A stretch of DNA of 21,912 bases, taken from a virus. The number at the start of each line of letters is the position of its first letter. Position 1 is the first letter of the stretch. Position numbers and translations under genes: made by a program. Where the stretch lies: the IMG/VR virus record IMGVR_UViG_3300022689_000234, positions 1 to 21,912 of that record. The stretch is one strand, 5' to 3'. Below, in pieces: positions 5,156 to 21,912 of the stretch. Under the pieces are notes generated by a model, which worked only from the letters and a program-made list of their open reading frames with translations, searched no databases and was not told the DNA's origin.

Positions 5156-5166
5156 TAAACAAGCCA

Positions 5167-5179
5167 GGCGCTTCGCGCC
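5167..5179 (+). repeat. Intergenic GGCGC-TTC-GCGCC mini-hairpin
   Basis: A perfect 5-bp GC stem with a TTC loop between the third fibre gene and the first ejection-protein gene, 20 bases ahead of that gene's ATG and just upstream of its AAGGAG. There is no T-tract, so it is not a normal terminator. It is the only fully intergenic member of a dispersed family. Confidence 0.8.
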
Positions 5180-5198
5180 ACCTAAACAAGGAGATAAA

Positions 5199-6089: not shown

Positions 6090-6098
6090 GGAGAACAT

Positions 6099-9400: not shown

Positions 9401-10080
9401 TTAAAAGAGCACTCATAATACTAAGCGTCGGGGCTTCGCCCCACCTAGCACAGGCACAGCCTGTACCAGTCCCAGTAGAGATCCAGGACATGGTCGCTTG
9501 GTCTGAGTCTAGGGCGAAGCCCTGCGCTACGAACATTACAAGACTTAAGTATGACAGAGGCCAGCTTAGCATCGGTGCATACCAAATGTCTTCAAGATAT
9601 GGCAACGCCCAGAGCATGCTAAATTGGATGGCCATAGATATGACAGGGCTTGACCCTAAACGGCACGCGTCAGCGTACGCTGCTAGGTTTGAAGCAATCT
9701 GCGAGCGCAACCCCGACTATTTTCTTTCTCAGCAAACTGAGTACTTACTTCACCAGTGGCCTGAGTGGCAGAGGGCACTTCGTAGATACGAGGCCCTTGA
9801 GAGGGCTCCTAAGGCGCTTAAAGCACTGACCCTTAGTGTTGTGGTGTCTTTGGGATATGAGGGCTCAAAACCGATCCTAGAGCCTCTGAGGGTGCTTCTG
9901 CCCAGGAAGACTGTGTTAGATCTGATATACGATATATCGAATAAGAGAGCTTGCTACTGGAAATCCCGTGGCGGGGCCAACGTTAAGGGTTGGATGGTCC
10001 GGGCGGATAGAGAGTACAGACAAGCATTAATAATGATGGGCGAAGCCCAGCGGGGATTGAAGGTGGTGTGTGGTGAATAA
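9397..10080 (+). CDS. Secreted lysozyme-like endolysin (candidate)
   Basis: A 227-aa protein with a Sec-type N-terminus (MIKRALIILSVGASPHLAQA, probable cleavage after AQA at residue 20). The mature part begins with a pattern seen in lysozyme-fold glycosidases: AWSESRA with Glu37 as candidate catalytic acid, then YDRGQLSIGAYQMS (residues 52-65) with Asp53 and a G-x-YQ turn. The rest is helical with many Arg and Trp. It sits immediately upstream of, and overlaps, an XhlA-like holin gene, giving a two-gene lysis cassette at the end of the late operon. An exported endolysin would need the holin for membrane depolarisation or timing rather than for release. The gene carries three dispersed mini-hairpins, one inside the signal-peptide region. 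Function is inferred from motif plus context; the exact family is not certain. Confidence 0.55.
   Translation: MIKRALIILSVGASPHLAQAQPVPVPVEIQDMVAWSESRAKPCATNITRLKYDRGQLSIGAYQMSSRYGNAQSMLNWMAIDMTGLDPKRHASAYAARFEAICERNPDYFLSQQTEYLLHQWPEWQRALRRYEALERAPKALKALTLSVVVSLGYEGSKPILEPLRVLLPRKTVLDLIYDISNKRACYWKSRGGANVKGWMVRADREYRQALIMMGEAQRGLKVVCGE
9430..9442. repeat. Mini-hairpin GGGGC-TTC-GCCCC
   Basis: Perfect stem at the 5' end of the endolysin gene, in the signal-peptide coding part. Confidence 0.75.
9511..9523. repeat. Mini-hairpin AGGGC-GAA-GCCCT
   Basis: Second copy in the endolysin gene, in the opposite loop orientation to the first, within codons next to the candidate catalytic Glu. Confidence 0.75.
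10037..10049. repeat. Mini-hairpin TGGGC-GAA-GCCCA
   Basis: Third copy in the endolysin gene, near its 3' end and upstream of the holin ribosome-binding site. Confidence 0.75.
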
Positions 10081-10336
10081 TGAGGAAGTTACGTCGCATT
10101 TGTTAGATATTAAGGTGGCTATCGCTACTATCCAGCAACAAAATGTAGAAATGAAACAGGATCTTTTTGAGCATAATGAGAGCACGAAAGAAACTAAAGC
10201 AGAGCTGGACAAAGTAAAGCAAGATGTTCGAGAAGCTAAGGTTGTCCTTACCACTTTAAAATGGGTAATTGGATTTGTGATTGTGTCCGCGCCAGCGGCA
10301 GCTGCTGCTCTTTTAAAGCTTTATAACTCACTTTAG
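10070..10336 (+). CDS. XhlA-like holin
   Basis: An 88-aa protein read from GTG, overlapping the end of the endolysin gene by 11 bases; GTG at 10073 is an alternative start, both served by GAAGG/AGGTGG at about 10059-10066. It has a hydrophilic, probably coiled-coil N-terminal two thirds (EEVTSHLLDIKVAIATIQQQ ... KVKQDVREAKVVLTTLK), then a single C-terminal transmembrane helix (WVIGFVIVSAPAAAAALL). This is the layout of the haemolysin XhlA holin family. It is the last gene of the forward operon. Confidence 0.65.
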   Translation: MVNNEEVTSHLLDIKVAIATIQQQNVEMKQDLFEHNESTKETKAELDKVKQDVREAKVVLTTLKWVIGFVIVSAPAAAAALLKLYNSL

Positions 10337-10343
10337 TAAATTT
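10337..10343. other. Convergent operon junction
   Basis: Only 7 A/T bases separate the TAG of the holin gene (10334-10336) from the TAA of the last reverse-strand gene (10344-10346). No GC stem with a T-tract is seen between or immediately beside the stop codons on either strand, so the two operons appear to run into each other. Confidence 0.7.
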
Positions 10344-10658
10344 TTATTTGCCCCAGCTTATAGCTAGTTCTACAGCTTTTGCTGCGTCTGGGTGACTGTG
10401 GTCGAAGCCAATGCAGGGAGATGTGTCCTCCCTTGATATCTTCTTTAATGCGACACCCATAACATACCAGCACCATTCGCATAGATCAAACGCTGCATCT
10501 TTATGTACGGGATCGTTGGTTACATAATATCTATATTTCATTGCCAGTACTCTCACAGTCTGCTCCTCAAATAATTGATTGCAGAACTCCGCTTCATTCT
10601 TTACCCTCAAACTAAAAGCTTTTATTGCTTCATCTGTTTCTTCTTTTGAAAAAATCAC
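10344..10658 (-). CDS. Hypothetical protein, last gene of the reverse operon
   Basis: About 104 aa if read from the GTG at 10658, which forms a GTGA overlap with the upstream stop; a TTG at 10673 is an alternative that adds five residues. No good Shine-Dalgarno is seen for either, so translation is probably coupled. The protein is soluble and helical, with several Cys, Trp and His (FDLCEWCWYVMGVALKK, and CIGFDHSHPDAAKAVELAISWGK at the end). I do not recognise the family. Confidence 0.55.
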   Translation of the reverse strand: MIFSKEETDEAIKAFSLRVKNEAEFCNQLFEEQTVRVLAMKYRYYVTNDPVHKDAAFDLCEWCWYVMGVALKKISREDTSPCIGFDHSHPDAAKAVELAISWGK

Positions 10659-11038
10659 TTTAGTAGATACCAAGCGTTCTTAAAGGGCTTAACCTTTTCT
10701 CCATTTACATTAAAACTTCTGATTGCTGAGTTAAACGGAATTATATAATAATCATTTAAGTCATGAATATACACCACAAAAAAGTCTACTTCATGGGCTT
10801 TATAGGGTCTGTTCTTATACCCTGTCAGTTCACATCTGTAAGTGTTTCGGTTTTTAGAAAAAATGCCTTTTACCTGAATCTTTGATAACTTGCCATCATA
10901 GTCTACTATAAGATCGTAGGGTATCTTATCTGTTACACTAAAGCTGGCATAGCCACCTCTTAGCATGATCTCGGCAGCTACCCTGCTTTCAGCAGCTGCC
11001 CCGAAGTCAACACTAGTTAAGTTGTTTGGCTTGCTCAT
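10655..11038 (-). CDS. Small PD-(D/E)XK nuclease-like protein
   Basis: A 127-aa protein with the compact nuclease signature: GAAAESRVAAEIMLRGGY (Glu17 in the first helix), KIPYDLIVDYDGKLSKIQVKG with Asp42 and the Q-x-K pair Gln55/Lys57, and a later aromatic strand VDFFVVYIHDLNDYYIIP. This fits the PDDEXK group related to intron-associated homing endonucleases and DUF4365-like proteins. The likely role is DNA cleavage in recombination or attack on competing DNA, but the substrate is unknown. It overlaps the GroES-like gene by 26 bases and the next gene by a GTGA junction. Standalone short members can be nucleases or inactive DNA-binding relics; here the key residues are present. Confidence 0.65.
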   Translation of the reverse strand: MSKPNNLTSVDFGAAAESRVAAEIMLRGGYASFSVTDKIPYDLIVDYDGKLSKIQVKGIFSKNRNTYRCELTGYKNRPYKAHEVDFFVVYIHDLNDYYIIPFNSAIRSFNVNGEKVKPFKNAWYLLK

Positions 11039-11417
11039 AAGCTTCTTTTGATGGGTAGTAGGCCAGAACAGACTCTTCTTTAACCATCGCTAGTTTGTTG
11101 TATGTCGGCTCGTTCATCCCAGGGAATACTGAAATCTTTGATAGACCGAACTTAGGTAGAATAACTATGGCGCCTACTTGTACATCTAAGGGGATCTTTG
11201 AGCCGTCTTCGTCGTCGTAGCCGTCACCTACCATAACTACTTCGCCAACTTCTAGCTTGTTCTCCTCGGCGCCTCCGCGCGCCTGGTTGGGGTCTGTGGC
11301 AATCACAATACCGCCTTCAGACTTTAGCTCCTCTTCTACCAGCTTAACCAAAACTGTAGATCCCCTAAGTTTAAATAGTCCCTCAGAGTTTCTTAAACCT
11401 TTAAAAAAATTATCCAT
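11013..11417 (-). CDS. groES: GroES-like co-chaperonin (Cpn10)
   Basis: A 134-aa protein with the Cpn10 beta-barrel pattern: KLRGSTVLVKLVEEELKSEGGIVIATD (residues 16-42), containing the GGIVI segment that in GroES contacts GroEL through the mobile loop, then LEVGEVVMVGDGYDDEDGSKIPLDVQVGAIVILPKFG (55-91), matching the family's G-x-V-x-x-VG-x-G and PL-x-V-x-VG-D/A-x-V blocks. It is longer than bacterial GroES (about 97 aa): it has an N-terminal extension of about 15 residues, a mobile loop enlarged by roughly 10 residues (NQARGGAEENK) and a C-terminal tail of about 35. Phage co-chaperonins such as T4 gp31 replace host GroES so that GroEL can fold the capsid protein. The gene is in the reverse operon, away from visible structural genes. 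Confidence 0.85.
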   Translation of the reverse strand: MDNFFKGLRNSEGLFKLRGSTVLVKLVEEELKSEGGIVIATDPNQARGGAEENKLEVGEVVMVGDGYDDEDGSKIPLDVQVGAIVILPKFGLSKISVFPGMNEPTYNKLAMVKEESVLAYYPSKEAYEQAKQLN

Positions 11418-11679
11418 TGCCCATCTCCTCTAGCTCGCGCTTACGCGCCTCTATTTTTTTATCTAGTTCTATTAATCCTTTTTTCGCTGTCTTCAGTTCA
11501 TCCCTTATTTCATTATAATCTCTCTTGTCCCCAAGGGCAGCCTCCATACGGTTAGCCAGTACCTGCAATTCCTCTATAAGACCTACAAGATAGCTATAGT
11601 TTTTTGTTTTATCTGCGTTCCTCATATCCTCTAAAACATTACATAAAGTTCTATTTGGGAAGTTGGATATGTACCTCAT
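11410..11679 (-). CDS. Hypothetical coiled-coil protein
   Basis: An 89-aa soluble helical protein. The core (TLCNVLEDMR ... NYSYLVGLIEELQVLANRMEAALGDKRDY) is followed by a charged coiled coil (RDELKTAKKGLIELDKKIEARKRELEEMGNG). The start overlaps the upstream stop (ATGA) and the end overlaps the GroES-like start by 8 bases. The core reads like a small helical family found in other phage genomes, but no function can be assigned. Confidence 0.6.
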   Translation of the reverse strand: MRYISNFPNRTLCNVLEDMRNADKTKNYSYLVGLIEELQVLANRMEAALGDKRDYNEIRDELKTAKKGLIELDKKIEARKRELEEMGNG

Positions 11680-11897
11680 TTATTTACCTCCAGCGCTTCG
11701 CGCATCATTTTATAAACATAAAGTTTTCTTTTTTGTTGTTGTACGTACTCACGTACTTGTGCCCTGTAGGGAATATACTTCGAGGGCTTAGGTCTTGGGT
11801 GCATTAGTTTTTGCAGAGCAGACCTTTCTAAGAACTGAATTTTTTCTAAAGGAGTTAGTTCTGGGTCTGAACCCCCCGGTAAGTATTCATCAGTCAT
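11676..11897 (-). CDS. Hypothetical small basic protein
   Basis: A 73-aa protein with an acidic start (MTDEYLPGGSDPELTPLEKI), then a basic, Pro/Tyr-containing helical region (HPRPKPSKYIPYRAQVREYVQQQKRKLYVYKMMREAL). A short GC hairpin lies near its 3' end. It abuts its upstream neighbour without a gap. Function unknown; a nucleic-acid or protein adaptor would fit the charge but is only a guess. Confidence 0.55.
   Translation of the reverse strand: MTDEYLPGGSDPELTPLEKIQFLERSALQKLMHPRPKPSKYIPYRAQVREYVQQQKRKLYVYKMMREALEVNK
11693..11703. repeat. Mini-hairpin GCGC-TTC-GCGC
   Basis: Perfect 4-bp stem near the 3' end of the small basic hypothetical gene. Confidence 0.65.
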
Positions 11898-12119
11898 TTA
11901 GTGCATCCCTTCTTTTTTCTTGTCGCTCTTAGAGTAGACCTCGTCTTCTAGCACTACCTCGTCTGCGGCAGCAGCCAGGGCTTGAAGGATATCAAACGCT
12001 GCGGACTGTGCAGAAGTAAGCTCTGCTGCTTCGTCTAGTGCTGAGATCTCCGGGTCAAAGACTGGTTCAATCTTTAGTCCGTCGTCAGTGTCTTCCATGT
12101 GTATTGTTACTTTAGCCAT
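11898..12119 (-). CDS. Hypothetical small acidic protein
   Basis: A 73-aa protein beginning MAKVTIHMEDTDDGLKIEP, strongly acidic through an Ala-rich helix (ALDEAAELTSAQSAAFDILQALAAAADEVVLEDE) and ending in a Lys-rich tail (SKSDKKKEGMH). One base separates its ATG from the upstream TAA. The beta-strand start and acidic helix do not match a family I know. Confidence 0.55.
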   Translation of the reverse strand: MAKVTIHMEDTDDGLKIEPVFDPEISALDEAAELTSAQSAAFDILQALAAAADEVVLEDEVYSKSDKKKEGMH

Positions 12120-12120
12120 C

Positions 12121-12315
12121 TTAATATCCCTTCTTGCCTTTGCCCGCCCAGTTCGGGCCTTTAAAATCTAATCCAACTCCCTTTGGTGGTTTCTTCTCTA
12201 AATTCCCTTCCCCCTTAGCCTGGCACTTTGGACAGGCAACTGTCTCATCTGATCTAATCTTTAAAAACTCAAACTCTAGCCCGCAGTTCCTGCACTTAAA
12301 CTCATGAATTGGCAT
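12121..12315 (-). CDS. FmdB-type zinc ribbon protein
   Basis: A 64-aa protein opening MPIHEFKCRNCGLEFEFLKI, with a second knuckle ACPKC at residues 32-36, giving the C-x2-C / C-x2-C pattern of the FmdB-family putative regulatory proteins (typical start MP-I/L-Y-E-Y/F-x-C-x-x-CG). The C-terminal tail (GVGLDFKGPNWAGKGKKGY) matches the family's usual Gly-rich, aromatic ending. The biochemical role of the family is poorly known; a nucleic-acid-binding or regulatory role is assumed. It overlaps the end of the recombinase gene. Confidence 0.75.
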   Translation of the reverse strand: MPIHEFKCRNCGLEFEFLKIRSDETVACPKCQAKGEGNLEKKPPKGVGLDFKGPNWAGKGKKGY

Positions 12316-13000
12316 TTAACATCTCCTCAATCCTTTTATCATCAATTGGTTGCAGGTATCTATAAGCAGTAGTAATAGAGGACCATCCCATTACCTTGCA
12401 AAGCGTCGGCGCATCCGCGCCATTCCTAGCCAGGTTAGTAGCGCAAAGCTTTCTCAGGTCGTGGGGTTTTAGTCCTTTAGAAGAAAGCGCTTCGCGCAAT
12501 ACTTTTTGAGAGACGAGAATTGTAGGCGGAGTCACAAAGACCTTCCTTGTCTTGCCACCTTTACCGGTGACATAGCCATCCTTGACTTTATATGACTCAG
12601 ATATCCGAAGCCCAGATTTGAGCAAGAATTCTGCGTGATCCCTCGTAGCATGGTCTGCTATTGATTTGATTGCGCGAAGCGCAGCTTGGTAGTCTATCTT
12701 AACTGGCTTCCTGTCGTATACGTGCTTAAACTTATTTGCATACATCTTTAAAAAATCTTTATACTGATTGGGGCCTTCCTCTAGCCCTTGATCGATCTTC
12801 CATTGGGTAAAGTGTGAGAGTCTGATGAAGAGAGTCTTAATGGTGTAGGGCTTTAGTTGCTTACTTAGCTCGTTGTATGCGGCACTAGGCGAAGCCTCGC
12901 TTAAGTGTAAATACTTATGAAGTCTTGCTTCTTCTGCTTTCATAGTTGTCTCTGCCCATGCATTCTTGTGGTAGTCTAAGTACTCCTTCATTCTTCCCAT
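12302..13000 (-). CDS. Compact tyrosine recombinase / integrase
   Basis: A 232-aa protein. Residues about 10-95 form an N-terminal helical SAM-like core-binding domain. The catalytic domain has Arg132 in LLKSGLRISES, a beta-hairpin Lys (147 or 150 in VTGKGGKTRKVFV), His180 and Arg183 in KPHDLRKLCATNL, Trp206 in MGWSS at the His/Trp position, and the nucleophile Tyr215 in SITTAYRYL, nine residues after Trp206. The catalytic set therefore looks intact. The stretch between the first Arg and the HxxR box is short (48 residues), so the fold is reduced. It could integrate the phage, resolve replication products or act on host sites; no repressor or excisionase is visible nearby. The gene carries three GCGAAGC-type mini-hairpins and one related tetraloop palindrome. 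Confidence 0.85.
   Translation of the reverse strand: MGRMKEYLDYHKNAWAETTMKAEEARLHKYLHLSEASPSAAYNELSKQLKPYTIKTLFIRLSHFTQWKIDQGLEEGPNQYKDFLKMYANKFKHVYDRKPVKIDYQAALRAIKSIADHATRDHAEFLLKSGLRISESYKVKDGYVTGKGGKTRKVFVTPPTILVSQKVLREALSSKGLKPHDLRKLCATNLARNGADAPTLCKVMGWSSITTAYRYLQPIDDKRIEEMLNANS
12408..12421. repeat. Related palindrome GGCGC-ATCC-GCGCC
   Basis: 5-bp stem with a four-base loop in the recombinase gene. It has the same GC-rich arm style as the triloop elements but a different loop. Confidence 0.6.
12487..12497. repeat. Mini-hairpin GCGC-TTC-GCGC
   Basis: Copy in the recombinase gene, between the codons for the catalytic Arg and His boxes. Identical core to 11693-11703. Confidence 0.7.
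12671..12683. repeat. Mini-hairpin TGCGC-GAA-GCGCA
   Basis: Copy in the recombinase gene, in the inter-domain coding region. Identical to 5482-5494. Confidence 0.75.
12887..12897. repeat. Mini-hairpin AGGC-GAA-GCCT
   Basis: Copy in the N-terminal coding part of the recombinase gene, with a 4-bp stem. Confidence 0.65.
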
Positions 13001-13001
13001 T

Positions 13002-13442
13002 TTACTGACCTTTCAGTTGCATTAAGTTAGTAACTTTCTGGTTAAGTTGCTGGACTGCCTGCAGTGTGGCTCCTGCCGTTTGGCCTACCGTTAGTACGGT
13101 GTTAGTCATCTCCTGCATGTTCTCCATTGCAACTCTAGCTACTTCCTCAGTATCTCCTGAATCCATTGCTTCGTCAAGTTTTTTTAATAGTTTTTTATTT
13201 TCTGCAATTAATTGCTTGACAGCAGGACTTTCAGCACCTTCTTTTGGTATTCTAGTCTTGTGGTACTCCCTGGACGATGCCCAGTTTGATGCACAGAAAG
13301 CTGAAAGTGAAGCCGCTAGGAACACTAAAACAGGAGACAAAATAGCCTCAGGAAAGAACGGAGCTATGGCAGTACCTGCGATCATTGTGGATAAGGTCAG
13401 TGTCATTTTTCGGCCGCCGAGGTAACTAAATAAATTGTTCAT
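13002..13442 (-). CDS. Membrane protein with coiled-coil tail, holin-like
   Basis: A 146-aa protein. The N-terminal part (YLGGRKMTLTLSTMIAGTAIAPFFPEAILSPVLVFLAASLSAFCASNW, about residues 7-55) can form two transmembrane helices. It is followed by a hydrophilic helical region (KQLIAENKKLLKKLDEAMDSG, then NTVLTVGQTAGATLQAVQQLNQKV). The GGRK-then-two-helices layout occurs in small phage membrane proteins, some annotated as holins. However, a holin candidate already sits beside the endolysin, so this may be an anchor for a replication complex or an envelope modifier. ATGA overlap with the upstream gene. Confidence 0.55.
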   Translation of the reverse strand: MNNLFSYLGGRKMTLTLSTMIAGTAIAPFFPEAILSPVLVFLAASLSAFCASNWASSREYHKTRIPKEGAESPAVKQLIAENKKLLKKLDEAMDSGDTEEVARVAMENMQEMTNTVLTVGQTAGATLQAVQQLNQKVTNLMQLKGQ

Positions 13443-13768
13443 TTCTTTTCCTTTTTCTTTTCGATAAGGTTGTAATACTTGTCAAACCTATGGCCCCTAG
13501 GAATGGCTCCAACCAAAAACTTGTCAAAGCTCTTCCCGTACGGGTGCCAAAATATTTCATCCTCGTCATTTATGTTACAGCAGTAAAGGGCGCTTTCAAG
13601 TTGTGTTTTAGAAAAGCCGCCGTTGTTGAGTTCAATTATCTTAAGAAGTTCTTTCTGTGTACGCACAGCGTCGCAATCTGCGTCCTGACACGTAGCGATG
13701 TTATACAGAACCACTACTAAATCTAGTGGCCCTAATCGATGAAATGGCGTCCAATACCCCTGCTTCAT
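13439..13768 (-). CDS. Hypothetical protein
   Basis: A 109-aa protein with GAAGG six bases before its ATG. It is aromatic-rich (QGYWTPFHRLGPLDLVVVLYNIATC, IFWHPYGKSFDKFLVGAIPRGHRFDKYYNL) with a middle helix resembling a winged-helix-like segment (TQKELLKIIELNNGGFSKTQLESALYCCNI) and a lysine-rich end. I do not recognise the family; a small DNA- or RNA-binding role is conceivable from that middle part, but is inference. Confidence 0.55.
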   Translation of the reverse strand: MKQGYWTPFHRLGPLDLVVVLYNIATCQDADCDAVRTQKELLKIIELNNGGFSKTQLESALYCCNINDEDEIFWHPYGKSFDKFLVGAIPRGHRFDKYYNLIEKKKEKK

Positions 13769-13770
13769 TA

Positions 13771-14142
13771 TTAACCTTCTACTGCAGCTTTAACTTTTGC
13801 AGCTTTCTCTTTGATAGAGTCTTGTCTGCTTTGTTTAGCCTGATAAGAAACTTGGCCACCGCCAGCATCTTTTGGTACCATTTCTTTTACCAAAACAAAT
13901 GCTGTAGGAAACTTAGTTCCTCTAGCGCTCTCGGCTTCACCGATGCGGATATCAAAATTAATCTGTTTTCCAGCATCAGCCAACTCATTAATGGCGGCGG
14001 CTAGAGCCTTGGCTCCGTCAATGCCTCTAGAGTCAGGACCAAAAGTTAGGACAATTTTTTCTCTGCCTTTAACATCTACTTCGTCCTTACGGATGCGCTT
14101 AGCGCCGACAATCTGACCTGTATTCTGTTGTTGTTCACTCAT
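13771..14142 (-). CDS. Hypothetical protein near replication genes
   Basis: A 123-aa soluble protein, with a disordered N-terminus (MSEQQQNTGQ), a mixed alpha/beta core (KGREKIVLTFGPDSRGIDGAKALAAAINELADAGKQINFDIRIGEAESARGTKFPTAFVLVKEM) and an Ala/Lys helical tail. The repeated strand-like segments and its place with the polymerase, nuclease and recombinase make a DNA-binding role possible, but there is no OB-fold signature I can defend. It has a good AAGGAG before the ATG and overlaps the upstream gene by 8 bases. Confidence 0.55.
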   Translation of the reverse strand: MSEQQQNTGQIVGAKRIRKDEVDVKGREKIVLTFGPDSRGIDGAKALAAAINELADAGKQINFDIRIGEAESARGTKFPTAFVLVKEMVPKDAGGGQVSYQAKQSRQDSIKEKAAKVKAAVEG

Positions 14143-14347
14143 TACTTTCTCCTTTTTTTGTTATTTCCTCAATGAGGCTATCTATTTCTTCGGGGGTTTC
14201 TTTTGCAGGAAACACCCCTGCCGGTGTATATACATGTGTAGACTTAGAATTATCCGACCAGTGGTAACCAGCAATAGTACCTAAAATTAGATGCAACCTT
14301 TGATTCAGATTTGCATGTGTTAGGTAGACCTTACTAAACTGAGTCAC
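14135..14347 (-). CDS. Hypothetical small protein
   Basis: A 70-aa protein read from GTG with AGGAG six bases upstream. It has a YLTHANLNQRLHLILGTIAGYHWSDNSKSTHVYTPAG core and an acidic helical tail (ETPEEIDSLIEEITKKGESNE). The core looks like a short beta-rich domain that might bind a ligand or another phage protein. No family recognised. It overlaps both neighbours. Confidence 0.55.
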   Translation of the reverse strand: MTQFSKVYLTHANLNQRLHLILGTIAGYHWSDNSKSTHVYTPAGVFPAKETPEEIDSLIEEITKKGESNE

Positions 14348-14594
14348 TGTCTACTCCTTGATACTTAAGTTCAGCGGAGCCTTCAGCTAAAAGTCTGTAG
14401 GCCATAGCACATGCCTGTACCGCCTCTTTTCTAATCTGCGCTTTAGTTCCGTCTTTCTGTTCGTAGTCTAGAACAGCCTTAGATAACTCTCCTGCTTCTT
14501 CTGCGTGAGCCATTGCAAGGTGCTTGTTAGTTGGGAACTTTGCCCTAGCACTTTGCACTTCTCTTTTAACTTCTTCAAAAAATTCGTGAATCAT
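14334..14594 (-). CDS. MazG-like nucleotide pyrophosphohydrolase (candidate)
   Basis: The start is taken at 14594 because AAGGAG lies six bases upstream and the ATG overlaps the previous stop (ATGA); an in-frame upstream ATG exists but lies inside the previous gene. The 86-aa all-helical protein has the metal-binding motif AEEAGELSKAVLDYE (residues 31-45, EE-x-x-E), then RKEAVQACAMAYRLL (55-69), as in short phage MazG-like enzymes that remove non-canonical or excess NTPs. The second E-x-x-D half-motif of classical MazG reads E-x-x-Q here. It probably adjusts the nucleotide pool for phage DNA synthesis. Confidence 0.6.
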   Translation of the reverse strand: MIHEFFEEVKREVQSARAKFPTNKHLAMAHAEEAGELSKAVLDYEQKDGTKAQIRKEAVQACAMAYRLLAEGSAELKYQGVDSDSV

Positions 14595-15370
14595 TTTGCA
14601 CTCCTTGTGTATTCTTTTATTGCAAGAATATAGCACTCAGCCAGAAAGAAAGGGTTTCTACCTACTTGATGACTGGGTACTTCTTTACTTGGCATGTAAG
14701 TAAAATAATCTCTAAGCCTTTGCTTAGTTTGCTTTAGATCTGTCAACCTTAAGGCTAACTTACCTAAAAAAGTTTGGTGTACATAATTACTTGTTAATAG
14801 GATAGCTAGGTGATTAGCTATGTCCGTATCATTTTTTAAGTACCTTGTGTAAAGTACGTCAATAATTAACCACATGTCAAACATGTAGTACAGGGGTTTT
14901 CCCCACTTGCCTAGTAGTCCTCTGAGCAATATACTTAAAACTTCAGGGGTAATATTGTCTGGCAATTTCTTAGGTGTTTTTAATACTCCGTTTTTTCTGG
15001 TGTTAGTGAAAAACCCGAAGCGCTTAGCAACAACTTTGGCAATGTCCTTTAACACCGGTCGGAGCCGTCCTTGGCTCTTCACTGCAAAGACACATATCCA
15101 AGGAGTGTATTGGTCCCTAGACCCCCTATCCTTCTCTCTAATCCAAGGCTTCTTGGCTTTAGCGTGTCTGACAAGCATTCCATCTTTGTCAGGGAAAAAC
15201 AATAAAGGATTTACTGGCGGGATAACTTGATGATAATACGGGGGGTATAGCATACGTAAAAGTTCTAGATGCCCACAAAAAAAAGCGCTGTCTCCCTCGT
15301 CTGCGCCCCATTTAGGGTGCTGAGTAATAGCCCCATGTTCGTCAATATAATTTTCAAACTTTAAGTTCAC
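14591..15370 (-). CDS. Conserved-looking protein of unknown function
   Basis: A 259-aa protein starting at GTG with GGAG six bases upstream, in a GTGA overlap with the exonuclease gene. The first 100 residues carry notable motifs: QHPKWGADEGDSAFFCGHL, VRHAKAKKPWIREKDRGSRDQYTPWICVF. The rest is helical and aromatic (LLGKWGKPLYYMFDMWLIIDVLYTRYLKND ... FFLAECYILAIKEYT). The D-S-A, R-H and S-R-D-Q motifs look like active-site or core motifs, but I cannot name the family. Its place between a recombination exonuclease and a MazG-like gene suggests DNA or nucleotide metabolism. Confidence 0.6.
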   Translation of the reverse strand: MNLKFENYIDEHGAITQHPKWGADEGDSAFFCGHLELLRMLYPPYYHQVIPPVNPLLFFPDKDGMLVRHAKAKKPWIREKDRGSRDQYTPWICVFAVKSQGRLRPVLKDIAKVVAKRFGFFTNTRKNGVLKTPKKLPDNITPEVLSILLRGLLGKWGKPLYYMFDMWLIIDVLYTRYLKNDTDIANHLAILLTSNYVHQTFLGKLALRLTDLKQTKQRLRDYFTYMPSKEVPSHQVGRNPFFLAECYILAIKEYTRSAK

Positions 15371-16527
15371 AGCTTGCTCCGTCTTATTACTCGTCTTGGG
15401 CCTCCGCCCACTCCACCTGTCTTTAGTTGTTTTACTTCGTAGATGTCATTCTCATTAAATCTTATCTTACCTACCTTGCGTTTGTCAAGTATCTTTACCA
15501 TTTCTTCTTCAGCTTTTTTCTTTTCCTCAAGGGCTGCATCAGCATTCTTAATAGTTTCTAGTAAAGCCACAAGCTCCTTTTTTTCCGTTATTCTATCCAC
15601 ATCTTTTGGCCATCTTTTCTTTGGCCACGTTTTAAAGTATTCTTTTTTGCTGTCGACATTGTCTCCCCAGCACTCATTACTGAAAGGGCAGAACGCACAG
15701 GAGAAGGAGCCAAGTGCGAATTCTTTGTTAGCTCTTTCCGGGTCCTGGTGTAAATCCACCGCTTCCGAAACTCTAAGAAACTTATCTTTAACGTATTCAT
15801 AAGTTTTCTTATTAGGTTTAAATCTGACCTCTCTAACCTCTGACGTATTTTTGTTGTAGTATATAAGAGAGGCGAAGGTGACGCCCCTATCACGAAGAAA
15901 GCCACATTCAGAATTATAATAGAAGTTAAGCTGTAGTGCGTTCGAGAGAAAAGATGCATCTTTGCAAGTCTTGCGGTACGCTTCGAGGTCGTCAATATAA
16001 AAGGAGTTTTCGTCAATTTCTTCGACCAACGGATCTTTTCTAAAGTCCTCAACCTTTTCTTTCCATTTAGTTTTGTAAGCGGTAGAAAAACCGTCTTTAG
16101 TAGACTTGACGTCAATGACTGCTTTGTACTTAGGCGAAACAAATACCGCATCAAGACTTCCTTCTATTAATTCCTCTGCATGAGGAAGTTTAAAAAATGT
16201 CAGTGTCTGCTGACCATACTTTATCTGCAGGCCTGCATCTGCCTCGGAGAAAGCAAAACGGTACTGCTTCAGCAAGTGGTTTTCCACGTAATTTCCTAGG
16301 TCTAGAAGCCTTGTTACGTTGGGCTCGAAAACTTCTTGTGGGTCTTCTCTTAGACCGCGAAAGTTTGCTAAGTCGTACGCCAATCGTCGCTCACATTTCC
16401 CTGCGCTTGAGGGCCTTAGTGGAAAGTAGGGCTTAGCTCGTTTTTCTGAAGACTGTTTAGTGTATGTATCTAGTATCTCAGAAAATGAGACCGGGGGGCC
16501 TAGTATGTTATTTTTCTTTTTACTCAT
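15367..16527 (-). CDS. Cas4/RecB-like PD-(D/E)XK exonuclease with Fe-S cluster cysteines
   Basis: A 386-aa protein. Visible motifs are RPSSAGKCERRLAYDLA with Cys45, GNYVENHLL with His84, EGSLDAVF with Asp126, AVIDVKST with Asp139 and Lys141 (the D-x-K form of the E-x-K motif), ALQLNFYY with Gln199 and Tyr203, and CAFCPFSNECW with Cys277, Cys280 and Cys286. Four cysteines, one N-terminal and three C-terminal, are the 4Fe-4S arrangement of Cas4 and AddB-type nucleases. It probably resects DNA ends during phage recombination, replication or host DNA degradation. A charged coiled coil (about 315-350) and a basic C-terminus follow the nuclease core. It is not CRISPR-associated here. GAGGTGG precedes the ATG. 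Confidence 0.8.
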   Translation of the reverse strand: MSKKKNNILGPPVSFSEILDTYTKQSSEKRAKPYFPLRPSSAGKCERRLAYDLANFRGLREDPQEVFEPNVTRLLDLGNYVENHLLKQYRFAFSEADAGLQIKYGQQTLTFFKLPHAEELIEGSLDAVFVSPKYKAVIDVKSTKDGFSTAYKTKWKEKVEDFRKDPLVEEIDENSFYIDDLEAYRKTCKDASFLSNALQLNFYYNSECGFLRDRGVTFASLIYYNKNTSEVREVRFKPNKKTYEYVKDKFLRVSEAVDLHQDPERANKEFALGSFSCAFCPFSNECWGDNVDSKKEYFKTWPKKRWPKDVDRITEKKELVALLETIKNADAALEEKKKAEEEMVKILDKRKVGKIRFNENDIYEVKQLKTGGVGGGPRRVIRRSKL

Positions 16528-16726
16528 TTAAAACCACCTCATAGTTTGGCTCAAGCATCCTGTCACTCATGTAAAGTCTTAGAGCCTCAAGAGCGTAGTA
16601 TAGCTGAAGACTTTCGTAGTCTAAGGCCAGGGCTGTCTCGGCTGGGAGGTGTACCTCAGAGTATTTATTAAGTACGTCCGCCAAAGCTTGGTTGTTTAAC
16701 TCTAGTTTGTTTTCTATTTTTCCCAT
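16520..16726 (-). CDS. Hypothetical small helical protein
   Basis: A 68-aa acidic helical protein (NNQALADVLNKYSEVHLPAETALALDYESLQLYYALEALRLYMSD), nested between the polymerase and the exonuclease and overlapping both. The position suggests a partner of one of these enzymes, but nothing in the sequence shows this directly. Confidence 0.6.
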   Translation of the reverse strand: MGKIENKLELNNQALADVLNKYSEVHLPAETALALDYESLQLYYALEALRLYMSDRMLEPNYEVVLNE

Positions 16727-18582
16727 TTTTCTGATACTCCACCTTCTACTTCTAAATTTATTATACCGTTTTCAGACTTCAGAGTAAAGCCCGTCATGCA
16801 CTTTTTTAATATTTTATCTGCCTCTTCAGCGTCCTCTGAAGCGGCCTCAGCCAAGATACAATCATGTATAAGTAGTAAGGGCCTACAGTCTAGCCTTGAG
16901 TCTCTCCAAGCACTCTCGGCCTTCTCACAGGCTCTAATGTTAAGGTCACTTGCCGATGACTGTACGAGAGTATTAAAGCCATTCATATAAGCACTCTCCC
17001 ATTCTTGTATCTTGATGGGTCTGCCAAACAAGTTTTCTACAGTTCCTCCCGACTCAAAGACTTCTGTAATATATTTGTGGAAGTCAACTGCAGATTTATA
17101 GAATTTTTTAAAATCCTTTAATTTCTTTTTGGCTTCCGTGTCGTCAATTTCGTACCCGTTTTTTAGGAAGGACTCTTTAATTCTTTTAAACCCAGCCCCG
17201 TAGAATAAACTAAATCCTATTTCTTTAGAGGTCTTCCTCATGTTCGGGTACTTTTCTTTTACTTCGCCTGGCTCGCAGTCTAGGCCAAAGAAGGTGATAG
17301 TATTATAATCGTGAATAGAATGACCATCTTTGAGTATTTTATATAGGTTCTTGTCCCCACTGTACAAGGCAATGAGTGCTGCCTCAATACCTGACAAATC
17401 GTATTGCACAAACTTCTTACCTTCTCTAGGTTTAAAAAGTTTATATAGCTTAGGTGGGACTGCTTGCAAATTGGGCTCTCGGCAAGATAGTCTCCCAGTT
17501 CTCGTTCCTGCAATATTAAAAGACGGGTGTATAACCCCGCTGTCATGAAGACTGTGATAAGTAGGCAAATACATTGTAAGCACCTTGTCGGCGTCCCGCC
17601 ACTCTAGGTACTTGGCCACATCTTGTTTACCTTCTTTGTTCAACCTATTAAGTACAGACTTCTTAGTGGAAGGCTTGCCTTCGTCATCTGTAATGTCGTA
17701 TCCTAGTTGCTCTCCTAGTAGCCATGCCATTTGGGAGCTAGAGCTTAAGTTAAACTCTTCGAGCTTTGCTAGTTTTTTATCTTGAAGTTTTTTGTACCTT
17801 TGGATTGTGCTCTCAGTTTTGCTTTTATCTTTTAGCCTGGCAATTGCGGCTTTTAGTTTTTGGTCATACTCTGCTATGACTTCTTCCGCTTGGCGGTTAA
17901 AATAAGAACTAAACTGGTCCGCCCATTGGTCTTTTATTTCACTTTCAAGAACACTTCTAATTTCTTTGTACTCTTCTTCGGCCTTGTCTAAAGATTCAAA
18001 GTCCAACTCGATGCCCGTTAGCTCCATTCTAAGTAACATCTTGTTCCACTGAAGAACTCTTTTGTAAAAGTCTAGGGAGCCCTGCTCTTCTAACTTTTTC
18101 TTAAGCACTTTATATAGTCGGTAGGTGTACTCACAGTCTTTGAGAACATACTCATCATTGTCGTGGTTGTCAGGGGTTTCCCAGAAAGGCTCTACGCCTA
18201 GGAAGTACGGAGCTAAAGTCTTTAGTGAATATCGGCCTGCTTGCCTGTGTGAAACGCCTTGTGGAAGTTTTTGATTAGCTTTTCTTCTGCGGAACTCATA
18301 GACCTCAAGCCAGCTGTCAGGTATTTTATCTGTACAAATGTGCGCCATAATCTGAGTATCCCACTGATACAGGTGTAGTGGTAGCCAGTTGTGATGTACC
18401 TTTAAAAATTTTAGGTCAAACTTAAAATTCTGTCCTACTAATTCTTGGTTGATATCAGCTAATTTTTGGTAGTTACCTCTGAGTACTTCTTGTTTACCTG
18501 GCTCCCAAAGTCCGACACAAGTAATAGAATCCTTCCAGGGGCTAAGCCCTGTTGTTTCAATATCAAGTGATAGTACTGACAC
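16714..18582 (-). CDS. polA: Family A DNA polymerase (exonuclease + polymerase domains)
   Basis: A 622-aa replicative polymerase, read from GTG with AGGAG six bases upstream. The 3'-5' exonuclease has DIETTG (Asp7, Glu9), NFKFD (Asp56) and YVLKD (Tyr145, Asp149). The thumb contains FNLSSSSQM (277-285), preceded by an unusual charged helical stretch of about 60 residues (about 215-275). The palm and fingers carry TRTGRLSCREPNLQAVP (360-376), motif A DLSGIE (Asp395, Glu400), motif B RKTSKEIGFSLFYG (Arg449, Lys453, Phe457, Tyr461) and motif C HDC (His573, Asp574, Cys575). There is no 5'-3' nuclease domain, as in other phage polymerases. Phe457 aligns with E. coli Phe762. Motif A has Gly-Ile-Glu-Ala-Ala where Gln-Ile-Glu-Leu-Arg is usual, and motif C has Cys where Glu is usual. 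Catalytic aspartates are intact, so it should be active. Confidence 0.95.
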   Translation of the reverse strand: MSVLSLDIETTGLSPWKDSITCVGLWEPGKQEVLRGNYQKLADINQELVGQNFKFDLKFLKVHHNWLPLHLYQWDTQIMAHICTDKIPDSWLEVYEFRRRKANQKLPQGVSHRQAGRYSLKTLAPYFLGVEPFWETPDNHDNDEYVLKDCEYTYRLYKVLKKKLEEQGSLDFYKRVLQWNKMLLRMELTGIELDFESLDKAEEEYKEIRSVLESEIKDQWADQFSSYFNRQAEEVIAEYDQKLKAAIARLKDKSKTESTIQRYKKLQDKKLAKLEEFNLSSSSQMAWLLGEQLGYDITDDEGKPSTKKSVLNRLNKEGKQDVAKYLEWRDADKVLTMYLPTYHSLHDSGVIHPSFNIAGTRTGRLSCREPNLQAVPPKLYKLFKPREGKKFVQYDLSGIEAALIALYSGDKNLYKILKDGHSIHDYNTITFFGLDCEPGEVKEKYPNMRKTSKEIGFSLFYGAGFKRIKESFLKNGYEIDDTEAKKKLKDFKKFYKSAVDFHKYITEVFESGGTVENLFGRPIKIQEWESAYMNGFNTLVQSSASDLNIRACEKAESAWRDSRLDCRPLLLIHDCILAEAASEDAEEADKILKKCMTGFTLKSENGIINLEVEGGVSEKWEK

Positions 18583-19022
18583 TATACTCTCCTAAGTTTT
18601 TGCTTTACATAGTTCCATTGTGCTGTTGTTAATTTATAATTATTTTCACTCTTCTCTCTACAAACTTCAATCTTTACATAATCCATTCTATCATCGTACA
18701 CTACTAAAAGCAACTCATTTTCTGCTATCGCTCTTTTTCCTGTGCCGGGCTGGGTCTTAGTACCTGTTATATATTTTTCACCGGGCATATCAAAGGCTTC
18801 GGTAGTTCTGCAAAAGTAAAGCTCTCTCGATGTTACCCCGAAAACTAGGTCCATTAAATACCCAAGTCTGTCGCCGTCGTACCCTTCGGGTATAATGTTT
18901 AGCATGGGGTAAAAAAACTTTTCTGTGATCTCTTTGATAACCACGGGCTTTCTTCCTCTGGTTTCTGAGGCAGATGGTATACTTTTTAGTTTTTTTCTAT
19001 ATTTTCTTTTACGCTTTGCCAC
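18582..19022 (-). CDS. Hypothetical basic protein upstream of the polymerase
   Basis: A 146-aa protein from GTG, with GGAG seven bases upstream. A highly basic N-terminus (MAKRKRKYRKKLKS) precedes a mixed alpha/beta domain (KEITEKFFYPMLNIIPEGYDGDRLGYLMDLVFGVTSRELYFCRTTEAFDMPGEKY ... LLLVVYDDRMDYVKIEV) and a basic C-terminal helix (TTAQWNYVKQKLRRV). Its stop shares a base with the polymerase start, so it is probably co-translated and may work in replication. The basic ends suggest nucleic-acid contact. Family not recognised. Confidence 0.6.
   Translation of the reverse strand: MAKRKRKYRKKLKSIPSASETRGRKPVVIKEITEKFFYPMLNIIPEGYDGDRLGYLMDLVFGVTSRELYFCRTTEAFDMPGEKYITGTKTQPGTGKRAIAENELLLVVYDDRMDYVKIEVCREKSENNYKLTTAQWNYVKQKLRRV
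18880..18892. repeat. Mini-hairpin TACCC-TTC-GGGTA
   Basis: 5-bp stem variant in the basic hypothetical gene upstream of the polymerase. Confidence 0.55.
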
Positions 19023-19353
19023 CGATTAGCTCCATGAAATGCTCTAAGGAAATGACTGCTAGCTCTTCTTTTCTATTTGCTTTAATAACAAGCAGAGGCT
19101 CAGTACCTTCCATCTTGTTTTCTTTTGCCTGCTCCCAGTCTGTATACACAGCGATCTTTGCTCGATGTTTGCATTCTACTGAATATGGAAATTTCTTTAT
19201 GGCTGCTTCTGACAGTTGTATATCTACCCCGCCTTGGCCCATTCCGGTAGACCTAACATCGTTTTGTGTAAGGTCTGTAAACACTTTGAGTATCCAGTCC
19301 CTAACCGTCTGCTGATTTTTTCGGCCTTTAGCCTTGGCTGATTGTGGTTTCAC
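19009..19353 (-). CDS. PD-(D/E)XK nuclease, Holliday-junction-resolvase-like
   Basis: The start is set at the GTG at 19353, which overlaps the upstream stop as GTGA; the frame is open further upstream but there lies over another gene. The 114-aa product has a basic start (KPQSAKAKGRKNQQTVRDWILKVF), then DVRSTGMGQGGVDIQLS (candidate catalytic Asp), FPYSVECKHRAKIAVYTDWEQAKEN (E-x-K, Glu-Cys-Lys) and a strand LLVIKANR. This Asp / Glu-x-Lys order, with a helix following, is the PD-(D/E)XK fold as in small resolvases. In a replication operon it is likely to process branched DNA. It could instead be a restriction-like enzyme; no methylase is beside it. Confidence 0.7.
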   Translation of the reverse strand: MKPQSAKAKGRKNQQTVRDWILKVFTDLTQNDVRSTGMGQGGVDIQLSEAAIKKFPYSVECKHRAKIAVYTDWEQAKENKMEGTEPLLVIKANRKEELAVISLEHFMELIGGKA

Positions 19354-19556
19354 AGTCCGGCCTTCGCTAAGAGTAGAGCTACAATTCCTATGACTAAAGA
19401 CAGTGCCGCCTGAGAGCCGCCCCAGAAAAAGTGGGCCATTGCCTGGTCCTTGTCGTTGTCGGCGATAGCCGCCGCTGCTCCCAAGATAATATTCATTACG
19501 AACATAACTGAAAGCACACACTGAAAAAAGAATAGTAATCCTACTAAAGTTAGCAT
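19350..19556 (-). CDS. Two-helix membrane protein
   Basis: The start is placed at the second ATG (19556) because AAAGGA lies six bases upstream of it but directly abuts the first ATG at 19562. The 68-aa product has two hydrophobic segments: LTLVGLLFFFQCVLSVMFVMNIILGAAAAIA, and QAALSLVIGIVALLLAKAGL, joined by an acidic then aromatic loop (DNDKDQAMAHFFWGG). Function unknown; a holin-like or superinfection role would fit its size but is not shown. Confidence 0.55.
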   Translation of the reverse strand: MLTLVGLLFFFQCVLSVMFVMNIILGAAAAIADNDKDQAMAHFFWGGSQAALSLVIGIVALLLAKAGL

Positions 19557-19762
19557 TCGCATTCCTTTAGGCCGTATATGGTCATCTCTCTAAGCTCGCC
19601 GCACTTCGTGCATCTGCCTTCTTCAATTAACCTGTCATAGTTTTCTTGCATCTCGTCCGCTAATTCCTCTATGCCTTTAGCCAGCTCACTAGAGTCAATC
19701 ACGCCATCGGCAATCCAGTTTCGAACTTTAGCTGGTCTGATTTTTACTTCTTGGTCTGACAT
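19550..19762 (-). CDS. Small protein with C-terminal zinc-knuckle cysteines
   Basis: A 70-aa protein: an acidic helical part (RPAKVRNWIADGVIDSSELAKGIEELADEMQENYDRLIEEG) then CTKCGELREMTIYGLKECEC. The C-x2-C and C-x-C pairs at residues 51/54 and 68/70 can bind one zinc. GAGG is seven bases before the ATG, and the gene overlaps the ClpP-like gene by 19 bases. Function unknown. Confidence 0.6.
   Translation of the reverse strand: MSDQEVKIRPAKVRNWIADGVIDSSELAKGIEELADEMQENYDRLIEEGRCTKCGELREMTIYGLKECEC
19601..19611. repeat. Mini-hairpin GCAC-TTC-GTGC
   Basis: 4-bp stem variant in the zinc-knuckle gene. Confidence 0.5.
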
Positions 19763-20226
19763 TTTAAAACCTCATCGACTAACCCAATTTGTAATGCTTT
19801 TTTAGCATCAAAATAAGTGTCGTGCTTGTACCAACCATTTATTGTTCTCTTGGTAACCTTGACGTGCTGGGATACAATTGCCTTATGCTTTTCGTGCATT
19901 TTATTGTTTTGCTTAACATCTTCGACTGAAGCTGCACCGTCCTCACCGTAGTGAGTAAGGAGCACAGCGTTTTCTGTCATTGCTCTGTGATTACCTGCCT
20001 GAAGAATTACAAGTCCTGAAGACATGCATGGCCCCACCGCTACAGTTGTAACTTTGTGTGAGTGTAGCCTGAGTAAATCATAGATGGCAAGTGCCACATA
20101 TAAGTCACCGCCATACGTACTGATAAGGACAGTAAGATCATCATTAGTAACGCCAGCAGTAAGAATAGCGTCAGAAACTCCGTCCCATAATTCCTCATTG
20201 ATTTCGCCAAAGCATTTAATGAGCAC
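19744..20226 (-). CDS. clpP: ClpP-like serine peptidase
   Basis: A 160-aa protein read from GTG (GGGAG seven bases upstream). It carries the ClpP/crotonase-fold signature: VLISTYGGDLYVALAIYDLLR (33-53), TVAVGPCMSSGLVILQAGNHRAMTENAVLLTH (61-92) with candidate nucleophile Ser69 in G-x-x-x-S-x-G and His92, and HDTYFDAKKALQIGLVDEVL (135-154) with Asp136 as third triad member. It lacks the N-terminal propeptide and is shorter than bacterial ClpP (about 190-200 aa). In phages ClpP-like peptidases often mature the prohead, but this gene lies in the reverse operon with regulators, not with head genes. It may therefore process or degrade proteins early in infection, possibly using host ClpX/ClpA. No Clp ATPase is visible here. 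Confidence 0.85.
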   Translation of the reverse strand: MLIKCFGEINEELWDGVSDAILTAGVTNDDLTVLISTYGGDLYVALAIYDLLRLHSHKVTTVAVGPCMSSGLVILQAGNHRAMTENAVLLTHYGEDGAASVEDVKQNNKMHEKHKAIVSQHVKVTKRTINGWYKHDTYFDAKKALQIGLVDEVLKCQTKK

Positions 20227-20229
20227 AAA

Positions 20230-20643
20230 CTATCTCCCAATAACGGCAGTACCTGCTGCCCCAGCTGCTAAACCAAGCAATATCATAGTGTATGGGTTTC
20301 GGTACCAAGCGTTGACTTCTTCTTCCAACATTACCATTACTTCGGCACGTCGCTTTAGTTCGCGCTCTTGGATTTGTATGTACTCGCCTTGCTTACCCAT
20401 GTACTGTTTTTGCCCAACAGTTAATTGCATAAGCTCTTTAATGGCTACGTCACAGTCGGTAGCAATCTCTGCTTTTTCCGCATTACACCTTTTATCTGAT
20501 TCCCCAAGCGCTGCTTCGCAGGATTCGTGCAGCAAACGCTGCCTCCCTAAGCACTCTTTTTCACTCAGGGCTAGACTCGTCATCGGATTTAATAAGATGA
20601 CCGTACTTAGAACGAAACTCGTCAACCTTTTTCTTTGCAGCAT
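20230..20643 (-). CDS. Exported helical protein with cysteines every 11 residues and a C-terminal membrane helix
   Basis: The start is set at 20643, where AAAGGAG lies six bases upstream; a longer in-frame reading runs further into the previous gene. The 137-aa product has a Sec-type signal (MLQRKRLTSFVLSTVILLNPMTSLA), then a helical region with Cys31, Cys42, Cys53 and Cys64, an exact 11-residue period. A Gln/Glu/Arg coiled coil (about 75-112) is followed by a C-terminal transmembrane segment (YTMILLGLAAGAAGTAVIG). There is no lipobox. The predicted topology is a periplasmic rod anchored in the inner membrane, possibly disulfide-bonded. It overlaps the upstream membrane protein by 83 bases in another frame, as Rz and Rz1 spanin genes do, but spanin identity is not shown. 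Confidence 0.6.
   Translation of the reverse strand: MLQRKRLTSFVLSTVILLNPMTSLALSEKECLGRQRLLHESCEAALGESDKRCNAEKAEIATDCDVAIKELMQLTVGQKQYMGKQGEYIQIQERELKRRAEVMVMLEEEVNAWYRNPYTMILLGLAAGAAGTAVIGR
20511..20521. repeat. Mini-hairpin CTGC-TTC-GCAG
   Basis: 4-bp stem copy in the 11-residue-cysteine gene. A second small palindrome, GCAGC-AAAC-GCTGC, follows 8 bases later at 20529-20542. Confidence 0.65.
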
Positions 20644-20824
20644 ATTCTGCTCCTTTAATAGCGGCTTGTTTAATAGCAAGCTCTCGTTTATTTTTTTCAG
20701 CCTCCGCTTCAAACTTTTTTGTTTCTAGATCCGACTTAGCCTTAACTAAATCCTTTTTAGATTTAAAGAAAAGGGCTCCAAGAACTCCTGATATTGCCAG
20801 TAAAACTAAGGTTACATACTCCAT
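20561..20824 (-). CDS. Membrane-anchored coiled-coil protein (possible spanin-like)
   Basis: The start is set at 20824 because GGAGG lies five bases upstream; the ATG 12 bases earlier has no such site. The 87-aa protein has one N-terminal transmembrane helix (MEYVTLVLLAISGVLGALFF), then a charged, coiled-coil domain (KSKKDLVKAKSDLETKKFEAEAEKNKRELAIKQAAIKGAEYAAKKKVDEF) and an acidic tail. This layout occurs in inner-membrane spanins, but the cluster of lysines right after the helix favours the coiled coil being cytoplasmic, which argues against a spanin. It overlaps both neighbours. Confidence 0.6.
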   Translation of the reverse strand: MEYVTLVLLAISGVLGALFFKSKKDLVKAKSDLETKKFEAEAEKNKRELAIKQAAIKGAEYAAKKKVDEFRSKYGHLIKSDDESSPE

Positions 20825-21527
20825 TAGTACCTCCATTATCTACTTTACTCTTTAAGCCCTTGTCTGTCAAACGTTTGTTACTCCCTTGGCTAGGTGCCTC
20901 CTCATAATACACTGAGTAGTACCCACAAAAAGGGCAAGTCTGATCCTCTAAAGCTTCTATCCTAGTGAATTTACTTGGTTTATCTGGTTCGATATAGCTG
21001 TCTGGAACTTGTTCGGGAGTGTCAAATTTGCTTGACATATGGCAATCACAGTAAAACCCAGCTTCCGCTTCGCGGACCTTCTCCTTAAGCTTACGTTTCT
21101 TTTGGCGTTTGGCTTCTGCTGCTAGTAGTTGCGCGGAGCGCTGGCTTACTTTTTGTTTGATGACTTCAGTAACATCTCTGCCTTGAGAGTCGGTAACTGT
21201 AAAGTCATCCCTACCAATCATTTCTTGAAGGTGAATGGTTCTTGTAGTCCTCGGGTCGTATACGTATCCCTTAGACTCTCTGAAAATGTAGTGTTTTTCT
21301 GCATACTTAGCGTCGGCAATATTTTTGTTATTTATATTTAGCTCACGTTTAAGTTTGACAATTAATTCTGTCCTTGATTTACAATTAAGTTTACAATTAA
21401 GATTTGTTATATGAAATTTTACAGCACTCTTGGAGCAGCCAAGTCTTTCGGCACACTGGGCCACAGTTAGCTTATCTAGGAGCAGGGCTCCGATTTGTTT
21501 TTCCTTAGGTGTTAGTTTTGTCTTCAT
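20763..21527 (-). CDS. LuxR-type HTH + PhaR-like + zinc-ribbon regulator
   Basis: A 254-aa protein, AAGGA eight bases before the ATG. Residues 1-62 match the LuxR/GerE DNA-binding domain: LTPKEKQIGALLLDKLTVAQCAERLGCSKSAVKFHITNLNCKLNCKSRTELI, corresponding to the usual LTPRE...VKxHxxNIxxKL...SRTE. Residues about 79-128 (YIFRESKGYVYDPRTTRTIHLQEMI, DDFTVTDSQGRDVTEVI) resemble the N-terminal DNA-binding domain of PhaR-type polyhydroxyalkanoate regulators (NRRLYDT...ITL...DF-V-DA..GEDIT). A basic linker follows (RQKKRKLKEKVREAEAG). Then CDC (160-162) and CPFC (198-201) form a likely zinc site. The HTH is at the N-terminus instead of the usual C-terminal place in LuxR regulators. It is among the first genes of the reverse operon in view and may control host or phage transcription. 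The HTH call is firm; the PhaR call is moderate. Confidence 0.75.
   Translation of the reverse strand: MKTKLTPKEKQIGALLLDKLTVAQCAERLGCSKSAVKFHITNLNCKLNCKSRTELIVKLKRELNINNKNIADAKYAEKHYIFRESKGYVYDPRTTRTIHLQEMIGRDDFTVTDSQGRDVTEVIKQKVSQRSAQLLAAEAKRQKKRKLKEKVREAEAGFYCDCHMSSKFDTPEQVPDSYIEPDKPSKFTRIEALEDQTCPFCGYYSVYYEEAPSQGSNKRLTDKGLKSKVDNGGTNGVCNLSFTGNIRSSWSPFL
21064..21076. repeat. Mini-hairpin TCCGC-TTC-GCGGA
   Basis: 5-bp stem copy in the regulator gene, in the basic linker coding part. A close variant with loop GGA (GCGC-GGA-GCGC) lies at 21131-21141. Confidence 0.7.
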
Positions 21528-21756
21528 TTGTTATGTCCTTATCGTTAAAGCATTCATCAAACATAGCAGAGTTTATTAATAGTTCCAACTTAATTCTTAA
21601 ATCTTTTGTGCCCTCGCCAGAGAGCCTGAACGTCCTGCCACAGTTGTCCTTAACTAGGGCATATGTAGGCTTACCCTTAGAGGCATACGCCCCGTAGAAG
21701 TCAACCTCGTAAGCATTAGCAGCGCCAGAGATTAATAGTAGAAGTAGGTAAATCAT
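21505..21756 (-). CDS. Small exported protein, two cysteines
   Basis: An 83-aa protein with a clear signal peptide (MIYLLLLLISGAANA, cleavage after ANA) and a mature part of about 68 residues (YEVDFYGAYASKGKPTYALVKDNCGRTFRLSGEG ...). Cys39 and a later cysteine in DECF could form a disulfide in the periplasm. The N-terminal mature region looks beta-rich. The start overlaps the upstream TGA (ATGA), and the end overlaps the regulator gene by 23 bases. Possible roles include superinfection exclusion or envelope modification; this is inference. Confidence 0.6.
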   Translation of the reverse strand: MIYLLLLLISGAANAYEVDFYGAYASKGKPTYALVKDNCGRTFRLSGEGTKDLRIKLELLINSAMFDECFNDKDITNEDKTNT

Positions 21757-21912
21757 TTGTCTTTATCCTTTTTCTTTTTAGTCGGGCACCAGTCGTTGCC
21801 ACAAGGCTCTTTACAGAATCCGCAGGCGGTTTGCTTGCCGTTTAGGATTTGGTTGATTTCTTTTAATGCAGCGTTCGCAAGATTGGCTGTCTTTCCGTCT
21901 TTAGTACCAACC
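21753..21912 (-). CDS. C-terminal part of a Cys-rich small protein (partial)
   Basis: An open frame enters from the right edge and ends with TGA at 21753-21755, encoding at least 52 residues. It contains ANAALKEINQILNGKQ, then CGFCKEPCGNDWCP and a lysine-rich tail KKKKDKDK. The four cysteines could bind one zinc or form disulfides. The ATGA junction with the next gene supports it as coding. The N-terminus lies outside the window. Confidence 0.6.
   Translation of the reverse strand, partial: VGTKDGKTANLANAALKEINQILNGKQTACGFCKEPCGNDWCPTKKKKDKDK

Follow-up and report, generated by a model that had tools for sequence, protein, structure and literature searches.

What kind of protein is encoded by the first gene of the leftward block in this phage DNA, and does it reach into the carbon metabolism of the host? 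The window is the IMG/VR virus record IMGVR_UViG_3300022689_000234, taken over its whole length of 21,912 nt (21.9 kb). A sequence-only reading had described the gene product as a phage transcription factor in which a LuxR-type helix-turn-helix (HTH), a domain resembling PhaR, and a zinc ribbon are joined, and had suggested that it may act on host carbon-storage control. We have compared each part of the protein with sequence profiles, structure models, and related phages. The features discussed below are listed in Table 1.

The gene and its surroundings

Rightward genes for tail and other particle proteins, and for a lysozyme-like protein, occupy positions 90-10336 of the window. A leftward block runs from the right end to 10344 and contains DNA polymerase, Cas4-like exonuclease, tyrosine integrase, GroES-like, and ClpP-like genes. 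The regulator gene, with the RBS-like sequence AAGGA 5′ of its ATG, stands in this block with spanin-like, ClpP-like, polymerase, Cas4-like exonuclease, and integrase genes downstream of it. Its 3′ end runs into the next gene, which is membrane or spanin-like (spanin-like PHROG match, E 1.7e-4) and probably starts at 20824; the RBS of that gene, GGAGG, doubles as codons of the regulator, and with this RBS included the overlap zone covers 20763-20836. Promoter-like sites between 10,000 and 21,912 are at chance level (19, with 19.6 expected), and therefore no operator can be proposed.

Table 1. Positions of the regulator gene, its parts, the hairpins of the window, and the related stand-alone proteins.
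Feature	Position	Strand	Extent and basis
Regulator gene	20763..21527	minus	254 aa plus stop; ATG at 21527, stop at 20765-20763
LuxR/GerE helix-turn-helix domain	21357..21518	minus	residues 4-57; PF00196, E 4.1e-12; fold match
Middle segment, PhaR_N look-alike by eye	21159..21266	minus	residues 88-123, YVYDPRTTRTIHLQEMIGRDDFTVTDSQGRDVTEVI; match not significant
Basic helical linker	21072..21170	minus	residues 120-152; helix H120-152 in AlphaFold2 model, low confidence
C-terminal cysteine module	20922..21050	minus	residues 160-202; C160-D-C162 ... C198-P-F-C201; likely zinc-binding
Overlap of regulator 3′ end with next gene	20763..20824	minus	last ~20 codons (~60 nt); sequence
5-bp-stem GAA hairpins, C-G closed	starts 272, 514, 5167, 5482, 9430, 9511, 10037, 12671, 18880, 21064
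5-bp-stem GAA hairpin, T-A closed	start 10983
Stand-alone CDC...CxxC protein	L136:15650-15973		107 aa; Cys layout and shuffle test
Weaker CDC...CxxC candidate	L135:3431-3787		118 aa; motif and position only

Two relatives used throughout, L135 and L136, were fetched through the polymerase alignment and are the nearest and second nearest by polymerase identity (43% and 42%). The ClpP-like protease gene of the window (19744-20226, minus strand; PF00574, E 1.3e-21) lies in the replication and lysis block, and ClpP-like ORFs likewise adjoin lysis genes in L135 and L136. A GroES-like co-chaperonin is encoded at 11013-11417 on the minus strand (PF00166, E 4.9e-13), and a cpn10 gene is also present in phage MW202601. 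On the plus strand, three tandem genes for proteins of 279-291 aa occupy 2602-5155; the second and third have tail-fibre matches, and the genes share a 69-nt repeat with a spacing of 857 nt.

Very small perfect hairpins, which have a GAA triloop (TTC on the other strand) and varying stems, form a family in the window. The oligonucleotide d(GCGAAGC) is a very stable DNA mini-hairpin. At each of the 11 GCGAAGC/GCTTCGC sites, the stem is extended to a length of 4-5 bp. In comparison with dinucleotide shuffles, 5-bp stems number 11 where 0.95 are expected (the largest of 40 shuffles gave 4), and 4-bp stems number 20 where 3.4 are expected. Most of these hairpins are intragenic, one of them within the regulator gene, and no such enrichment was found in the nearest relatives, L135-L139. 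Terminator-like sites at 10000-21912 are in excess (22 vs. 10.9 ± 3.5), in part because of the GAA mini-hairpins.

The N-terminal LuxR-type domain

The N-terminal HTH is the best-defined part of the protein. Residues 4-57 match PF00196 with 46 bits and E 4.1e-12, well above the Pfam gathering cut-off of 23.5 bits, and with E 9.7e-15 in the record-wide search. No second domain in the protein exceeds a Pfam cut-off. The single-sequence AlphaFold2 model places helices at residues 7-17, 22-29, 33-46, and 52-62, which is the four-helix HTH fold, with pLDDT of about 85-92 over most of the length of the domain. When modelled residues 1-65 were compared with solved structures, VqmA (Z 11.6), phage VqmA (10.9), GerE (10.8), and NarL (9.7) were matched, and the alignments to these solved LuxR-type domains span 58-71 residues. 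When the protein sequence was searched against solved structures, convincing E-values were confined to the HTH. The signature AVKFH lies within the domain, and the DNA-contacting signature is kept. Thus, the GerE/LuxR assignment of the sequence-only reading is borne out by both profile and fold.

The regulator has the four-helix HTH in common with GerE, NarL, VqmA, and phage VqmA, but its arrangement is different. In classical LuxR/NarL proteins, a sensor or receiver is N-terminal and the HTH is C-terminal, whereas in the regulator the HTH is N-terminal. There is no receiver, PAS, or autoinducer domain, but instead a C-terminal cysteine module. LuxR receptors encoded by phages are already known (PMC6456758). 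In MW202601, whose polymerase and tail/stabilisation protein are 33% and 37.5% identical to those of the window, the 89-aa protein UOF79035 consists of the HTH only, and the 108-aa protein UOF79037 has a GerE HTH at residues 5-58. In these small phage LuxR-HTH proteins (phrog_3282), the GerE HTH stands alone or N-terminally, the latter as in the regulator; unlike the regulator, the MW202601 proteins have neither the middle segment nor the cysteine module. LuxR HTHs that are N-terminal or stand alone already occur in phages, and the regulator is not special in that respect.

The middle segment and PhaR

Is the middle segment a PhaR domain? The residues quoted in the sequence-only reading, YDPRTTRTIHL and DDFTVTDSQGRDVTEVI, are literally present within residues 88-123, but the parallel to PhaR that was drawn from them does not go beyond chance in the profile tests. 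If the segment were a strongly diverged PhaR_N domain (PHB_acc_N, PF07879), the protein would combine two DNA-binding modules, and host PHA or phasin promoters may be among its targets. We consider this improbable, even though the colinear order Y-D...T...I.L...DF.V.D..G.D.T speaks for it. PF07879, with a gathering cut-off of 25 bits, was absent from the Pfam matches (E up to 10) of both the whole protein and the isolated segment, while a genuine PhaR domain run alongside scored 105.5 bits; the record-wide search did not give it either. This absence is the profile half of what the sequence-only reading had named as counting against the likeness. An HMM of PhaR_N built locally from 109 distinct Pseudomonadota sequences scored the isolated segment at 6.2 bits, with E of about 7-14 against a library of the size of Pfam (24,736 families), and the whole protein at 3.1 bits. 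Among about 4,957 phage ORFs, the segment ranked 3rd and the whole protein 24th with this HMM.

The profile-profile alignment is more favorable to a PhaR_N origin. With hhalign, the middle segment and PhaR_N align with a score of 23.5 (Prob 42%, P 2.6e-4), which was attained by none of 800 shuffles. However, 1 of 1,700 real 70-residue phage segments reached the same score, and that segment looks, from its sequence, like part of an ATPase and not like PhaR. A likeness to PhaR at this level is to be expected by chance, because thousands of families could have been evoked. Most of the columns that are invariant in the 109 sequences are also lost. Of the N-terminal core, K-Y-x-N-R-R-L-Y, the corresponding stretch of the regulator, YIFRESKGYVYD, retains the final Y alone. 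PhaR has a two-domain make-up (PMC10888616), and the C-terminal, granule-binding partner domain PHB_acc (PF05233) has no match in the regulator by Pfam. Furthermore, PhaR_N did not turn up in any of the 50,697 phage records searched, even with matches up to E 10 allowed.

The structure models bear on the same point. The prediction for the regulator is good for the HTH, but the middle and C-terminal parts are poorly modelled, with pLDDT mostly under 60 and about 44-61 in the middle. There, the model has strands at 88-91 and 96-99, then a short helix (100-103), a bridge close to residue 111, and a further helix at 120-152; a model of PhaR_N has strands at 9-11, 16-18, and 35-37 and helices at 20-28 and 46-56, in keeping with the beta-beta-alpha-beta-alpha fold of that domain. 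The order of strands and helices in the low-confidence regulator model is congruent with that of PhaR_N and in register with the sequence alignment, so that the elements fall at matching positions, which may again speak for a PhaR_N origin. The first helix is 4 residues shorter in the regulator. The PhaR_N model itself gave only noise against the PDB (top E 1.4), where no solved PhaR_N structure was found by sequence, and for this reason no solved fold can be used as a yardstick.

We conclude that the middle, a small segment of about 45 residues, is not established as a PhaR domain; it resembles PHB_acc_N in visual motif order and, in a low-confidence model, in the order of strands and helices, but lies below any family threshold. 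That it is a true but highly diverged PhaR_N captured by the phage, giving a three-module regulator (LuxR HTH, PhaR_N, and zinc module) with two DNA-binding surfaces, we hold to be very improbable. If it were true, this would be the first PhaR-type domain in a phage within the collections searched. The proposal that the phage rewires host carbon storage (PHA control) through PhaR is tempting, but it finds no support other than the visual likeness and is set aside here.

The cysteine module and the probable function of the regulator

The two cysteine pairs noted before, C160/C162 and C198/C201, are present, but no zinc-ribbon family was matched above its cut-off, the only match being Lar_restr_allev with 13.1 bits and E 0.12. 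In the first pair, the spacing is C-x-C instead of C-x2-C. Judging from their arrangement, the pairs are predicted to hold zinc, and probably do.

The same cysteine layout without an HTH is seen in a 107-aa protein of L136 and in a weaker 118-aa candidate of L135. The L136 protein aligns to the module with a score of 69, as compared with 27 ± 5.6 for Cys-preserving shuffles, 1 of 2,000 of which attains it (E 0.0024 in a one-genome search). The L135 candidate is only weakly similar in sequence, since 152 of 2,000 shuffles with fixed cysteines attain its score, and it lies upstream of lysis, ClpP, and polymerase genes, as the regulator does in the window. The pattern CDC.{28,45}CxxC occurs in just two distinct proteins among 4,955 polymerase-locus ORFs, and these are the ones in L135 and L136; neither belongs to a family in Pfam or PHROGs. 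From the cysteine layout, the shuffle tests, and this rarity, it follows that the module recurs in the phage group. In at least one case, that of L136, it forms a separate protein, and in the window it is part of a protein with an HTH.

The L135 candidate stops about 10 residues past its CxxC, and the last ~60 nt of the regulator are shared with the RBS and start region of the next gene. Both would be understandable if the functional protein ended behind the cysteine module, at about residue 215, and if the final ~40 residues had been added recently, by extension or by a frameshift, as an overprint on the beginning of the spanin-like gene. We think this unlikely; the frame stays open as far as 20765, so that the longer product is made according to the sequence, which comes from one record.

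Somewhat less unlikely, though still a minority possibility, is that the regulator is not promoter-specific but works as an adaptor or as a factor directed at the host, with the HTH docking on DNA or on a host LuxR/NarL regulator and the cysteine module binding a host target, e.g., RNA polymerase. The module can act without the HTH, as its existence as a separate protein in L136 (and as a candidate in L135) suggests, and phages encode proteins that target bacterial regulators of the LuxR family by binding to them; the complex of LasR with the phage-encoded Aqs1 (6v7w) is among the structure matches. However, the HTH retains its DNA-contacting signature, and nothing indicates a protein partner.

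How widespread is the joined form? Neither the 50,697 phage records nor the scans of viral_contigs gave a full-length homologue, and full-length and segment searches for relatives returned nothing from the phages, viral_contigs, and genome_contigs collections; the absence from viral_contigs is weak evidence, because those scans used exact short peptide patterns. The plasmids search gave short matches, those listed being mainly to the HTH, and none covered 80% of the query. With Foldseek, the model of the regulator had no match among viral structures at E < 0.001, and the best were HTH proteins. Records of related phages contain HTH-only or cysteine-module-only pieces, not the joined form, and no paper on this architecture was found in the literature. 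Within the collections searched, the architecture of HTH plus cysteine module is seen once.

We consider it likely that the gene product is a phage transcription regulator composed of a LuxR HTH, a basic helical linker, and a predicted zinc-binding tail. The earlier view of the protein as a phage transcription factor is thus upheld, in the form of a LuxR HTH with a C-terminal cysteine module. By analogy with LuxR/NarL domains, the regulator would dimerize through the HTH, and the dimer would bind promoters on phage or host DNA. The basic helical linker would connect the HTH to the cysteine module, which may hold one zinc ion and contact protein or nucleic acid, so that the helix and the zinc-holding tail would provide a second contact. 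The regulator would most likely set the timing of phage transcription, because its gene heads the leftward replication block.

The protein is most likely a phage regulator whose kind is known and whose tail is unusual. Its combination of a LuxR HTH with a cysteine module was not seen elsewhere in the collections searched, and a related phage encodes the module alone. The gene thus offers a small, testable regulator of phage transcription.
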